Assembly: GCF_000025005.1 (NCBI RefSeq)
Contig: NC_013525.1
Location: 310,001-374,000, forward strand
Reading direction: 5' to 3'
DNA length: 64,000 nt
From: Thermobaculum terrenum ATCC BAA-798
GTDB lineage: Bacteria > Chloroflexota > Chloroflexia > Thermobaculales > Thermobaculaceae
In this document: in pieces, positions 8,054 through 14,815 of the stretch
Position numbering within the stretch: the first letter of the stretch is position 1
How the letters are laid out: each line of letters opens with the position of its first letter
Translations under genes and position numbers: made by a program
The notes under the pieces: model-generated
Database searches by the model: none
Seen by the model: the letters and a program-made list of their open reading frames with translations, nothing else
Told to the model about the DNA's origin: nothing

Positions 8054-8653
8054 CTATATGGACTGCCTACCCTGTAGGGCCCTGCTGAGCGTTACTTCGT
8101 CAGCGTATTCAAGATCTCCACCAACTGGAAGACCATAAGCAAGTCTAGTTATCTTCACGTTCAGGTTCTTCAGAAGGCGAGCTATATAGAAAGCCGTGTT
8201 GGAGCCTTCAAGTGTAGGATTAGTCGCGATTATAACCTCCTTCACTCCTCCACGGGCAACTCTATCCTTCAATTCCTGTAGCTTTAGTTTGTCAGGAGTG
8301 ATCCCATCCAAAGGTGAAAGTAATCCATGCAGTACATGGTACAAACCTTTATACTCATTAGTGTTCTCTATAGCTCTGACATCCAAGGGTTCTTCGACAA
8401 CGCATATAACAGATCGATCCCTTGATTCGCTAGAGCAGATCCTGCATGGATCCACATCTGTAATGTTGAAGCACTCTGAGCATAGGGTAGTCTTTTCTTT
8501 TAGCTCCCTAATAGCATCGGCCAAAGACTCAGCCTGCTCTTTGCTACTCCTCAGCAGCCAATAAGTAAGCCGGGAAGCTGTTTTCGGTCCTATTCCTGGT
8601 AATTTGGAGAATTCCTCTATGAGCCTCTCCACAGGCTCTGCCGTAGTATACAT
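8054..8653 (-). CDS. recR: Recombination mediator protein RecR
   Basis: The 199-residue product matches RecR in length and layout: helix-hairpin-helix FSKLPGIGPKTASRL, a zinc finger with C58, C61, C70 and C73, a TOPRIM domain with VVEEPLDVRAIE, and the C-terminal GLPVGGDLEYADEVTLSRAL. RecR with RecF and/or RecO loads RecA on single-stranded DNA during gap repair. It is the first gene of a three-gene unit with bpsA and the SpeD-like gene. The usual neighbour dnaX is absent; the link to polyamine genes is probably positional. Confidence 0.95.
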   Translation of the reverse strand: MYTTAEPVERLIEEFSKLPGIGPKTASRLTYWLLRSSKEQAESLADAIRELKEKTTLCSECFNITDVDPCRICSSESRDRSVICVVEEPLDVRAIENTNEYKGLYHVLHGLLSPLDGITPDKLKLQELKDRVARGGVKEVIIATNPTLEGSNTAFYIARLLKNLNVKITRLAYGLPVGGDLEYADEVTLSRALQGRQSI

Positions 8654-10228: not shown

Positions 10229-10903
10229 ATGCAGGAAGAGCAGGTTAGCGGGACAGAGGCTATCCGTGTAGTGATAGCTGAGGATCATGCTCTCGTGAGG
10301 GAAGGAACAAAGGAGCTCCTCGAGAAGCGAGGTATAAGGGTAATAGGGGAGGCTTCAAATGGCGAGGAGGCTGTAGAGCTTGCCCAAAAGCTCCAACCAG
10401 ACCTGATCTTGATGGATGTAAGCATGCCAAAGCTAAATGGCATAGATGCCACGAAGATTATCAAGCAAAAACATCCAAATATAGCTGTTCTTGTTCTCAG
10501 TGCGTATGACGATGATCAGTATGTGTTTGCGCTCCTTCAAGCAGGGGCAGCAGGTTACATACTGAAGGACGCACATGCTGATGAAGTCGTGAACGCGGTG
10601 AAGGCGGTCGCTAATGGAGAGTCTGTACTTGCGCCTTCCATAGCCAAGAAAGTGCTTTCAAGGTTTACATCTCCTAGTACACAGCCTGAACATCCAAGCC
10701 CTGTTCTAACTGATAGGGAGCTAGATGTCTTAAGGTTAGCGGCAAAGGGAGAGAGCAACAAGGCAATTGCCCAACAATTACATCTGAGTCCCCGTACCGT
10801 TCAGGTACACTTGAGCAATATATTTAATAAATTTGGTGTTGCATCAAGGACAGAAGCTGTGCTGCATGCTCTCAAGTTGGGGCTTATAGACCTTTCGGAG
10901 TAA
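10229..10903 (+). CDS. NarL/FixJ-type response regulator
   Basis: The 224-residue product has a receiver domain (about 12-130) with acidic pocket E18/D19, phospho-acceptor D63 in LILMDVSMPKLNG and the conserved Lys in GYILKDAHADEV, and a C-terminal LuxR-type HTH (about 155-220) with LTDRELDVLRLAAKGESNKA. It is an output partner for the histidine kinase that starts 6 bases downstream. Regulon unknown. Start chosen from the ATG with GAGG about 12 bases upstream. Confidence 0.93.
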   Translation: MQEEQVSGTEAIRVVIAEDHALVREGTKELLEKRGIRVIGEASNGEEAVELAQKLQPDLILMDVSMPKLNGIDATKIIKQKHPNIAVLVLSAYDDDQYVFALLQAGAAGYILKDAHADEVVNAVKAVANGESVLAPSIAKKVLSRFTSPSTQPEHPSPVLTDRELDVLRLAAKGESNKAIAQQLHLSPRTVQVHLSNIFNKFGVASRTEAVLHALKLGLIDLSE

Positions 10904-10909
10904 TATATT

Positions 10910-13156
10910 ATGGACAGAAGGTTTGCCAGGGTAAGGGTCCAGGAGCCATTGGAAAAGCCTCCGCCTGACTTTAGAACCGTAGATCAAACCACTCAAAAGA
11001 TATTCACCCTCAATGCTATAGCTGCTGCTATAAGCAGAGAGGCCGACCTAGATAAGGTCTTTTATTTAGCCCTGGACTGGATCCTGGAAGTAACAGGTGC
11101 TGACGCGGGAACAGTATTCTTGCGTGATGAAGAGACAGGAGACTTGGTCAGAGTAGTTAGTAGAGGTATAAGCAACCTTTTTCTGACCGAGCAAGAAAGA
11201 CATAGTTATGGTATTGGTCTGGCAAGCAGGGTGATAAGGGCGGAGTCACCCATAGTTCTGGACAACGTAGCTCGAAGCTCCATGATTAGCCCATCTAGCT
11301 ACGGAGACGTAGTCAAGAGCTGTGTGGGCATCCCATTAAGGTCCGATAATAAAGTCGTAGGAGTCCTCAATATATTCTCTAAGCAGGTCAATAAATTCGA
11401 ACCTGCTGATATAGAGCTACTCACAAGTATTGGTAACCAGATAGGAGTAGCAGTAGCCAAAGCGAAACTCAGTTCAACTGTTACCCAGAGCAGAGAGCAG
11501 CTGCAAGAGAAGATGCGTCAGCTGCAGGAGCTTTTGAAGATCAGTGCCACTTTCAGAGCTAACGCTCCTCTCGAGAAAGTACTCAATGCTATCTGTAACG
11601 CTATCAGTAGTGCGCTTGGCTTCAGACTAGTTGAGCTTAGTCTTCTGGATCCTACCACTGGGATGATGGTACCTGCAGCATTCGCAGGCTTCTCTGAGGA
11701 AGAGCAGCAAGAGCTAAGGAGTTTTGTGAGGCCTCCAAGCTTCTACGAGCGTATCATGCATCCCAGGTTTCAAATCTCAAATAGTTACTTTATATCTCAC
11801 AAGGAAGATATCGAGCAGACGCTAGGCATGCAGTGGGCCTTTCTACCAAATATCAACGATGAAGAGAGAGGTCCAGATGAGTGGCATCAGAAGGATGCAT
11901 TAGCTGTGCCAATCTACGATCGTGATGGCAACCTTACGGGACTGGTCTTTGTAGATGATCCCATCGATAGAAAAGTACCTAGCCTAGAGAAGATACAAGT
12001 GCTGGAGATGTTCGTGCAACAAGCCGGGCTAGCTGTAGAGAATGCCAGGCTCCTGAGCGACCTACAGAAGTCTGAAGCACAGTACAGGTTGGTGACCGAA
12101 AATGCAAGTGACCTCATATTCCTGCTTAACCCAGATGGAAGCATATCTTTCGCAAGCAGCAGCGCAAAAGCAATCCTTGGTTACCAACCAGATGAACTGT
12201 TAGGGAAGATGTTTGCGGATCTAATATCTCCTCAGTCCAAGCGCATAACACCTGAATGTCTAATAAACCCATCGACCGCAGACGAGCTGAGCATCAGGTG
12301 CGAGATAGAAGCCATAAGAAAAGATGGGAACTCAGTATTTCTTGAAATAAGCTGTACACCAGTGTTTGAAAATGGAGTATTTAGAGGCGAGCAAGGTACA
12401 GCAAGAGATATCACTGAAAAGAAGAGGATGGAAAGGGAAATAGCTCGCAGGCAGAGGCAGCTTAGAAGATCCCAAAAGCGAGAGGAGCAGCTCAGCGGCT
12501 ACGCTGCAGCTGTGATAGCTGCTCAGGAAGAAGAAAGACGAAGAATAGCCAGAGATCTGCATGACGATACAGCGCAAGCTCTAATTGCTCTCTCCAGACG
12601 TATAGACTCACTTAGAGAAGACCTAGGAGATCTTCCAGAAGCAGCTCAAAGAAAGATCGAGGATCTAAAGGCCCTTACAGATCAAACCCTTGCTAGCGTG
12701 AGAAGATTCAGCCGAGATCTAAGGCCTTCCATACTCGACGATCTAGGTCTAGTACCAGCTCTAGAGTGGCTGGTCTCTGAGAATGCTAAGAGATACAAGA
12801 TAACCACCAGGCTGAAAATCCAGGGTGAGGAAAGAAGGCTACAACCTGAAGTAGAGTTAGCATTATTCAGAATAGCCCAGGAGGCCCTTAACAACACTGC
12901 CAAGCACTCTCAAGCTACAGGAGCTGCTGTAGAGCTAACCTTTGGAGACACATGGTGCAGGCTTACAGTTTCTGATAATGGCATAGGTTTTCAAACTCCA
13001 CCCAATATATCTGAGCTTGCCGACCGGGGTCGCATGGGAGTTATGGGTATGTATGAGAGAGCTAACCTGCTTGGTGGTAACCTCTATGTAAGGACCGCTC
13101 CCGGACAGGGTACCAGAATAACAGTCACTGTTCCCCTGATAGAGTCCTCATTGTAA
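10910..13156 (+). CDS. GAF-GAF-PAS sensor histidine kinase (NarX-like, HisKA_3)
   Basis: The 748 residues comprise a first GAF domain (about 35-185), a second GAF-like domain (about 208-385), a PAS domain (about 390-510), a coiled segment, the HisKA_3 dimerisation motif RRIARDLHDDTAQALIAL with phospho-acceptor H551, and a C-terminal ATPase domain ending MGVMGMYERANLLGG and GQGTRITVTVPL. There is no membrane helix, so it senses a cytoplasmic or diffusible signal such as redox or a small ligand. CGGAG lies 9 bases before ATG. It overlaps the response regulator's transcription unit, a classic NarL/NarX-type pair. Confidence 0.92.
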   Translation: MDRRFARVRVQEPLEKPPPDFRTVDQTTQKIFTLNAIAAAISREADLDKVFYLALDWILEVTGADAGTVFLRDEETGDLVRVVSRGISNLFLTEQERHSYGIGLASRVIRAESPIVLDNVARSSMISPSSYGDVVKSCVGIPLRSDNKVVGVLNIFSKQVNKFEPADIELLTSIGNQIGVAVAKAKLSSTVTQSREQLQEKMRQLQELLKISATFRANAPLEKVLNAICNAISSALGFRLVELSLLDPTTGMMVPAAFAGFSEEEQQELRSFVRPPSFYERIMHPRFQISNSYFISHKEDIEQTLGMQWAFLPNINDEERGPDEWHQKDALAVPIYDRDGNLTGLVFVDDPIDRKVPSLEKIQVLEMFVQQAGLAVENARLLSDLQKSEAQYRLVTENASDLIFLLNPDGSISFASSSAKAILGYQPDELLGKMFADLISPQSKRITPECLINPSTADELSIRCEIEAIRKDGNSVFLEISCTPVFENGVFRGEQGTARDITEKKRMEREIARRQRQLRRSQKREEQLSGYAAAVIAAQEEERRRIARDLHDDTAQALIALSRRIDSLREDLGDLPEAAQRKIEDLKALTDQTLASVRRFSRDLRPSILDDLGLVPALEWLVSENAKRYKITTRLKIQGEERRLQPEVELALFRIAQEALNNTAKHSQATGAAVELTFGDTWCRLTVSDNGIGFQTPPNISELADRGRMGVMGMYERANLLGGNLYVRTAPGQGTRITVTVPLIESSL

Positions 13157-13530
13157 CCGATATATCCACAAACCTACGTTAGATAGTTGTGAATATATTT
13201 TTATTTTGAAAAGAGGATGGGCAGACGTATTTAGTAGAGAGTGTGGATACGTGGAAAACAACTCAAAATGCACCAAATAAGCGGAGTTACCCGTGGAAAT
13301 ATATGTGGAAAAACCGGAGAGCTTTTGCACAATGTTTATAACTTTTGGGACACGTTTTTATATCGCTGAAAGTTATCCAGGATTTTTCCAGAGTATTTTC
13401 CACAACTCAGCTACATTTTCCACAAAGTTTTCCACAATTTCCACAAGTTATCCACAATCGCTAATCTACTGATGTTTAGATTATAGATGTCCTAAATTGT
13501 GGATTTCGCAAAACGTTACAAAATCTTTAT
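13157..13530. other. DnaA-box-like cluster, candidate replication origin
   Basis: This AT-rich non-coding block holds one perfect DnaA box (TTATCCACA, 13448-13456) and many near matches: TTTTCCACA at 13396, 13416 and 13428; ATTTCCACA at 13437; ATATCCACA at 13162; and, on the other strand, TGTGGATAC at 13242, TGTGGAAAA at 13304 and TGTGGATTT at 13498. Five sites between 13396 and 13456 are spaced 9-20 bases apart. Such density is typical of oriC. No dnaA, dnaN or gyrB is adjacent, so it could instead be a DnaA titration site or an upstream control region for the NYN gene. Confidence 0.5.
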
Positions 13531-13535
13531 TGGGT

Positions 13536-13541
13536 TATAAT
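13536..13541 (+). promoter_or_regulatory. Candidate -10 element for the NYN-domain gene
   Basis: TATAAT at 13536-13541, 48 bases before the GTG start. No good -35 hexamer is found at 16-18 bases; the upstream DnaA-box-like sites could bring in a regulator. Confidence 0.35.
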
Positions 13542-13588
13542 AGCTTCTAGGTTGCAGAGGGGAGTTCAAGAAAGGGAAGGGAGAAGTA

Positions 13589-14815
13589 GTGCATAACTTG
13601 GATAGTCGTGTGCGTAGCGGCACACAGTTTTTACACCAAAATGATGTAGCTCTTTACATAGACTGGGAGAACATCAAATATAGCCTTTGGAACAAGGATT
13701 CAAGGGTCCCGAATGCTACAGCTCTCAAAGAAGCAGCTTCAAAGTTTGGACGTGTAGTCGTAGCCAGGGCTTATGCCAATTGGCAGGAGCACCAGCACCA
13801 GCTTGATCCTAATGATCTTTATTCAGCTGGAATAGAACCTATCTATGTACCTACCAGGACATACACCTCAACCGACGCTGTAAAGACTAATAATCGCAGA
13901 AAGAACAGTGTAGATGTAAAGCTGACAGTGGATGCTGTGGACTTCTGCTTGAGTAATCCTAATATACATACATTTGTACTAGTGACTGGTGATGGTGATT
14001 TCATCCATCTCGTCAATGCTCTCAGGTCGCGCGGTAGAGAGGTAGTGGTAATTGGCTGCTCCTGGAGCACTAGTTGGCAGCTCACAAGCATGGCAGACTA
14101 CTTTATACCATACGATATAGAGGTCGACCCTATATACGACAAGGTCGGTGAGGATAACACTGAGGACGTAGACCTGGAACATGCATTTAAGACCTTAGTA
14201 GAGATAATGCATGATATACGCAGGAGGGGTGAGCCAAACGTCTTCGCTCAGATTCGTCTTCTTATGCTCTCCAGGATGCGAAACTTCGATGAGAGGCACT
14301 ATGGATTCTCTAACTTCAGAGAATTCATGAAAGAAGCTGAGAGGAGAGGCTTGATCAAGACCTACAATGTGGGTCTAATAGATCGTGCTTACCTTCCGGA
14401 TGAGCAGCTGGAAGTTGATGTGCATACCCACATGAAAGGTATTCCCAGCAATGAGCTATCTGCTAGCGGAGCTAATACTGGATATGCCTCTTCCTATCCG
14501 TATAAGGAAGATGGCAGAAGCATGCTCATCAAGCTAATAAGGTACATCAGTGAGCTGGAGCGAAACAGTCCCTATATGAGCTTCAACTTCATGGTGGAGA
14601 ATGCCGCGAACAATGGAATACTACCTATAAGCGTTTCAGAGATAGCTACTATGCTCAACATAGCTATAGATGATGGTATATTCAAGCGCGAGACCAAGAC
14701 CATCTACAGCAAAGCTACGAATGATTACCGGGAAATAAGTGTGTTCCATCTCAACAGATCACATCCCCTGGTTATAGAGGCAACCGAAGAGGATATGGTC
14801 TCGAGCGAGAGCTGA
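13589..14815 (+). CDS. NYN (PIN-like) domain protein with LOTUS-type C-terminal region
   Basis: The protein has 408 residues. The NYN/LabA-type nuclease fold (about 18-175) begins VALYIDWENIKYSL (D25, N28) and includes NSVDVKLTVDA (D109) and LVTGDGDFIHLV (D135, D137), the acidic residues that bind metal in PIN-like ribonucleases. Residues about 195-265, with YGFSNFREFMKEAERRGLIK, look like an OST-HTH/LOTUS RNA-binding domain; a further winged-helix-like segment (about 310-400) ends the protein. GTG start with GGGAG 5 bases upstream. Likely an RNA-targeting protein; targets unknown. It sits directly beside the DnaA-box cluster. Confidence 0.8.
   Translation: MHNLDSRVRSGTQFLHQNDVALYIDWENIKYSLWNKDSRVPNATALKEAASKFGRVVVARAYANWQEHQHQLDPNDLYSAGIEPIYVPTRTYTSTDAVKTNNRRKNSVDVKLTVDAVDFCLSNPNIHTFVLVTGDGDFIHLVNALRSRGREVVVIGCSWSTSWQLTSMADYFIPYDIEVDPIYDKVGEDNTEDVDLEHAFKTLVEIMHDIRRRGEPNVFAQIRLLMLSRMRNFDERHYGFSNFREFMKEAERRGLIKTYNVGLIDRAYLPDEQLEVDVHTHMKGIPSNELSASGANTGYASSYPYKEDGRSMLIKLIRYISELERNSPYMSFNFMVENAANNGILPISVSEIATMLNIAIDDGIFKRETKTIYSKATNDYREISVFHLNRSHPLVIEATEEDMVSSES

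Follow-up and report, generated by a model that had tools for sequence, protein, structure and literature searches.

A DnaA-box cluster detached from dnaA is the predicted replication origin of chromosome 1 of Thermobaculum terrenum

The 64,000-bp stretch of the Thermobaculum terrenum genome analyzed here (the window, C1:310001-374000) contains a group of DnaA boxes at positions 13157-13530, which raises the question of whether chromosome 1 of this organism is replicated from a site outside the usual gene context of an origin or whether the boxes serve as a DnaA reservoir or regulatory site, both of which had been proposed in a preliminary description of the sequence. The genome of T. terrenum YNP1 comprises chromosome 1 (C1; 2,026,947 bp) and chromosome 2 (1,074,634 bp), and the coordinates of the window place the cluster at chromosome 1:323157-323530. 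The genes on its two sides, encoding a histidine kinase and an NYN-domain protein, are 432 bp apart (Table 1), and the absence of coding potential ascribed to it agrees with the flanking open reading frames, which end at 13156 and start at 13589. The genes immediately around it are ordinary regulatory and metabolic genes, and the local GC content matches that of chromosome 1. The possibility that the cluster is an RNA element was rejected, as the stretch has no Rfam match.

Within these 374 bp, 11 DnaA boxes with at most one mismatch to TTWTCCACA were identified, five of them exact, and the looser consensus TTWTNCACA returned 13 sites at the same threshold. The density reported in the preliminary description is thereby borne out, since 500 dinucleotide shuffles of the same AT-rich sequence yielded 0.34 ± 0.60 boxes at up to one mismatch (maximum 3), with an expectation of 0.02 for the exact motif. 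Every other 374-bp stretch of the window holds at most two boxes (TTWTCCACA, up to one mismatch); loose matches over the whole window are unremarkable in number (95 versus 84), and it is their clustering that stands out. Five of the boxes form a head-to-tail array, the last of which, at 13448, is the perfect TTATCCACA. This array had been described as regularly spaced; its boxes are packed tightly, but the start-to-start distances of 20, 12, 9 and 11 are not even. The boxes at 13396, 13416 and 13437 make up a triple phased at 20 and 21 bp as in relatives of the class Chloroflexia, the third with one mismatch, although with five boxes within 61 bp this phase could, in T. terrenum alone, be due to chance.

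Table 1. Features of the proposed oriC of chromosome 1 and of the genes on either side (positions in the window).
Feature	Position	Strand	Basis or remark
LuxR-type response regulator and GAF-PAS histidine kinase genes	10229..13156	+	Orthologues near the G403 cluster
Histidine kinase-NYN intergenic region, proposed oriC of chromosome 1	13157..13588		ORF bounds, box statistics, skew fit
Second A+T-rich low-stability stretch, left edge	13160..13209		Sixth least stable separate 50-bp stretch in the 64-kb window
DnaA box ATATCCACA	13162..13170	+	1 mismatch
DnaA box GTATCCACA	13242..13250	-	1 mismatch
DnaA box TTTTCCACG	13250..13258	-	1 mismatch
DnaA box TTTTCCACA	13304..13312	-	Exact TTWTCCACA
DnaA box TTTTGCACA	13323..13331	+	1 mismatch
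DnaA box TTTTCCAGA	13384..13392	+	1 mismatch
Head-to-tail array of five DnaA boxes	13396..13456	+	Boxes at 13396, 13416, 13428 and 13448 exact TTWTCCACA; box at 13437 with 1 mismatch
A+T-rich DNA 3' of the array, preferred candidate for the unwinding element	13457..13546
Possible DnaA-trio, 3'-GAT-GAC-TAC-AAA-5'	13466..13477	-	Direct reading against the PMC8287927 rule
NYN-domain protein gene (Pfam PF01936)	13589..14815	+	Orthologue flanks the box cluster in G400

The statement that dnaA and gyrB are not nearby was confirmed: dnaA is found at C1:439, 323 kb from the cluster, and gyrB at C1:53569 (53.6 kb). These usual origin neighbours, a common but not defining feature, are thus absent beside the cluster, and the ParB-family genes, at C1:559 and 998 kb, are also remote. 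The dnaA region was itself considered as the origin and ruled out, because no exact TTWTNCACA box occurs within the 20 kb flanking the gene in each direction and no skew switch is seen there. The encoded DnaA is full-length, with the standard domains PF00308, PF08299 and PF11638, including Bac_DnaA_C, and its helix-turn-helix contains GGRDHTTVLH, a sequence shared with DnaA proteins whose target is TTATCCACA; judging from this helix-turn-helix, T. terrenum DnaA is predicted to be able to read TTATCCACA.

Strand skew on chromosome 1 was fitted by a two-parameter origin/terminus regression, in which gene strand entered as the second term, using sampled stretches that cover about 43% of the chromosome. 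The best-fit origin falls at 322 kb for GC skew and at 325 kb for both skews combined, in a fit sharpened at this place by denser sampling near the window, and the cluster lies at 323.2-323.5 kb; AT skew by itself favours 315 kb. The fitted terminus, at 1.278-1.288 Mb, is near the point opposite the origin. At the best fit the combined-skew residual drops from 2.28 to 0.617, the lowest value among 100 block shuffles being 1.56, whereas forcing the origin to dnaA barely fits the data (2.08 of 2.28). In the sampled stretches, AT skew is positive between about 1.30 Mb and the cluster, across the zero point of the map, and negative between 326 kb and about 1.28 Mb, except at 775 kb, mostly independently of gene direction, and GC skew is higher to the right of the cluster. 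A skew minimum elsewhere had been named as an observation that would speak against an origin at this locus; on the sampled sequence, the switch is located at the cluster. In the samples outside the window, exact TTWTCCACA motifs are all on the + strand in the left replichore (11 of 11) and divide 4 to 2 by strand in the right one, both being small numbers. On chromosome 2 (L052-L071), sampled skew gave a best origin at about 5-10 kb and a terminus at about 0.68-0.71 Mb, and no parS was found on that replicon. One chromosome 1 sample, L025 (C1:1900001-1920000), has 65% GC on a chromosome of 48% GC, like chromosome 2, and is a possible case of transfer between replicons.

A parS site, a common though not defining feature of the surroundings of oriC, is present near the cluster. 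The 3.1-Mb genome has a single perfect site, TGTTTCACGTGAAACA; it is located at C1:309104, at a distance of 14 kb from the cluster and within the first codons of a gene that we take to be rpe, and a second site that keeps the 14-bp core lies 67 bp beyond it. Since a reversed control pattern matches equally often when up to two mismatches are allowed, weight is placed only on the perfect site and its neighbour.

The search for the same cluster in relatives, suggested in the preliminary description, returned a single site in most genomes of the family. The pattern TCCACA-N(2-32)-TTWTCCACA has four matches in the T. terrenum genome (3.1 Mb), all inside the cluster, and is confined to one place per genome in five of six family relatives; the sixth (G404, 78% complete) has no match. 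Flanking genes are shared with two of these relatives. In G400 the cluster immediately precedes the NYN orthologue (60% identity). In G403 it is about 4 kb from the orthologous kinase/regulator pair (identities of 64% and 71%); as in T. terrenum, the kinase gene has its 3' end towards the cluster, and an RNase Y gene is found on the opposite side of the cluster. One 20-bp box pair, without the triple, is kept in G400, G401 and G403. The three-box site of the relative G295 is surrounded by different genes, and the contig with the G295 NYN gene breaks off 81 bp upstream of the matched stretch. Wherever a family relative has a cluster, dnaA is on a different contig. AT skew in G403 is mostly weakly negative to the right of the cluster, and its dnaA contig has no clear switch; this counts for little, since only 14 kb of sequence lies to the left of the cluster. 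The G403 NYN orthologue (L075:5956-7217, G403:C33), which is not beside the box cluster of that genome, is split over two frames, possibly by a frameshift or an assembly error. Box groups flank the RNase Y gene on both sides in G403 (L132:4773-4824 and 8077-8284) and in G402, and are perhaps a two-part origin.

Box enrichment, the skew switch at the cluster, the nearby parS and conservation in relatives together lead to the reading that the cluster at 13157-13530, detached from dnaA, is almost certainly the DnaA-type oriC predicted for chromosome 1, and the last three of these support the earlier suggestion of an origin outside the usual gene context. The alternative raised with it, a reservoir or reactivation site comparable to E. 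coli datA or DARS that titrates DnaA while replication starts elsewhere, would likewise appear as a box cluster outside the dnaA context, and the chromosome does contain a smaller box group that is a candidate for such a role. Sites of the datA/DARS type lie apart from the origin, however, whereas here the skew origin coincides with the cluster, and the tandem-box pattern is found in the genome only at this cluster; a reservoir is therefore very unlikely, and is not needed to account for the locus. The smaller group (L013:11456-11603, C1:431456-431603), 108 kb to the right of the origin, occupies a gap between two genes and runs into the 3' end of the downstream one. It is a possible reservoir site, and its place inside the right replichore rules it out as the origin.

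A main role of the boxes in regulating the NYN-domain gene is suggested by their distance from it, since only about 130 bp, with a promoter-like TATAAT at about 13537, separate the end of the cluster from the start of the gene, and by the position of the cluster ahead of this gene in G400 as well. Yet boxes are mostly absent upstream of NYN homologues in other Chloroflexota, which also rules out the cluster as a general promoter feature of such genes; in G403 the cluster and the NYN gene are not neighbours; and regulation of this gene would leave skew and parS unexplained. It could be a side role of the boxes, and as their main role is extremely unlikely. An integrated plasmid or other mobile element bringing its own origin might come to mind in a genome with a second replicon of different composition, but it has a vanishingly small probability given the match of local GC to chromosome 1, the ordinary neighbouring genes and the retention of the site in relatives.

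With the cluster as oriC, initiation would begin with DnaA, supplied from a gene 323 kb away, binding the exact boxes of the array at 13396-13456 and then spreading onto the weaker boxes toward the A+T-rich flank. The DnaA oligomer would open adjoining A+T-rich DNA, most likely the 3' flank of the array (13457-13546), after which helicase would be loaded and two forks would travel, presumably in both directions, to the terminus near 1.28-1.29 Mb. By nearest-neighbour stability, this flank belongs to the least stable 1% of 50-bp segments at two of the positions examined, 13457 and 13480. Two low-stability flanks lie beside the boxes, although less stable places exist elsewhere in the window. 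Four in-frame trios, 9 nt past the box at 13448, resemble a DnaA-trio under the published rule (PMC8287927). This candidate is weak and likely due to chance, and it was rejected as strong evidence because A+T-rich DNA often contains three trios when any spacer of 0-16 is allowed, and because the run is not conserved in G400.

Beyond the family, many genomes of the class Chloroflexia have box pairs just upstream of dnaA (e.g. G034, G102, G150, G158). In 11 class loci (L158-L168), picked by eye from the list of a pattern search for tandem triples, DnaA boxes are spaced at exactly 20 and 21 bp in several gene neighbourhoods: between dnaA and dnaN in G407; near dnaN and DNA ligase in G281 and G408, in the former also beside a ParA-like gene; and beside a bifunctional-nuclease-domain gene and parA in G118, G230, G158 and others. 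In Chloroflexus aurantiacus J-10-fl (G118) the array is at C1:1967010-1967060 (1.967 Mb), the skew-fitted origin at 1.97 Mb (loci L158, L170-L209) and parS at 1.969 Mb, 2.3 kb from the array, while dnaA, at 753, is far away on the terminus side. In the published description of this genome, oriC is set at the twelve o'clock position (PMC3150298). It is probable, if well short of certain, that Chloroflexia keep an oriC module locked at 20/21 bp amid scattered neighbourhoods (dnaA-dnaN, near dnaN, parAB, kinase/NYN). For this class-wide array, and for the doubt about the annotated C. aurantiacus origin that follows from it, the basis is one skew fit together with loci selected by a pattern search. 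C. aurantiacus thus resembles T. terrenum in its 20/21-bp boxes at the skew-fitted origin, with parS near and dnaA far, and differs in the array neighbours, which are parA and the bifunctional-nuclease-domain gene.

No paper describing the oriC of Thermobaculum was found, and a prior automatic prediction (DoriC) is possible. In E. coli, oriC is a DnaA-box origin separated from dnaA, between gidA/mnmG and mioC (PMC6669920; PMC10225481). The T. terrenum locus is likewise a predicted DnaA-box origin apart from dnaA, but a larger number of exact boxes are packed into a single array, and gidA/mioC neighbours are lacking. The distance between origin and dnaA is also far larger in T. terrenum than in E. 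coli. In Thermomicrobium roseum, of the same phylum, the origin was placed near dnaX rather than at dnaA, on the basis of GC skew because dnaA, dnaN and gyrB are dispersed; it shares with T. terrenum an origin away from dnaA and located by skew, and differs in that no box array is described in the available part of the source (PMC2615216). Synechococcus elongatus, from a lineage in which dnaA and dnaN are separate, has a DnaA-dependent oriC at the skew switch (PMC7198777), as predicted here for T. terrenum, but near dnaN, a gene that was not located in T. terrenum. Since the origins of E. coli, cyanobacteria and T. roseum are away from dnaA, T. terrenum adds a further case of a kind already known.

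For T. terrenum, the result provides a specific, testable origin for the chromosome of a hot-soil bacterium that is numbered from dnaA. It also shows that numbering based on dnaA can mislead across a bacterial class as to replichores, gene dosage and strand bias. Greater interest attaches to the phased array seen across the class and to the question it raises over the C. aurantiacus annotation: if the array reading is true, origins published at dnaA, that of C. aurantiacus among them, would be wrong. A box spacing that stays constant while the neighbours change would, moreover, allow a constraint of DnaA geometry to be separated from mere gene order.
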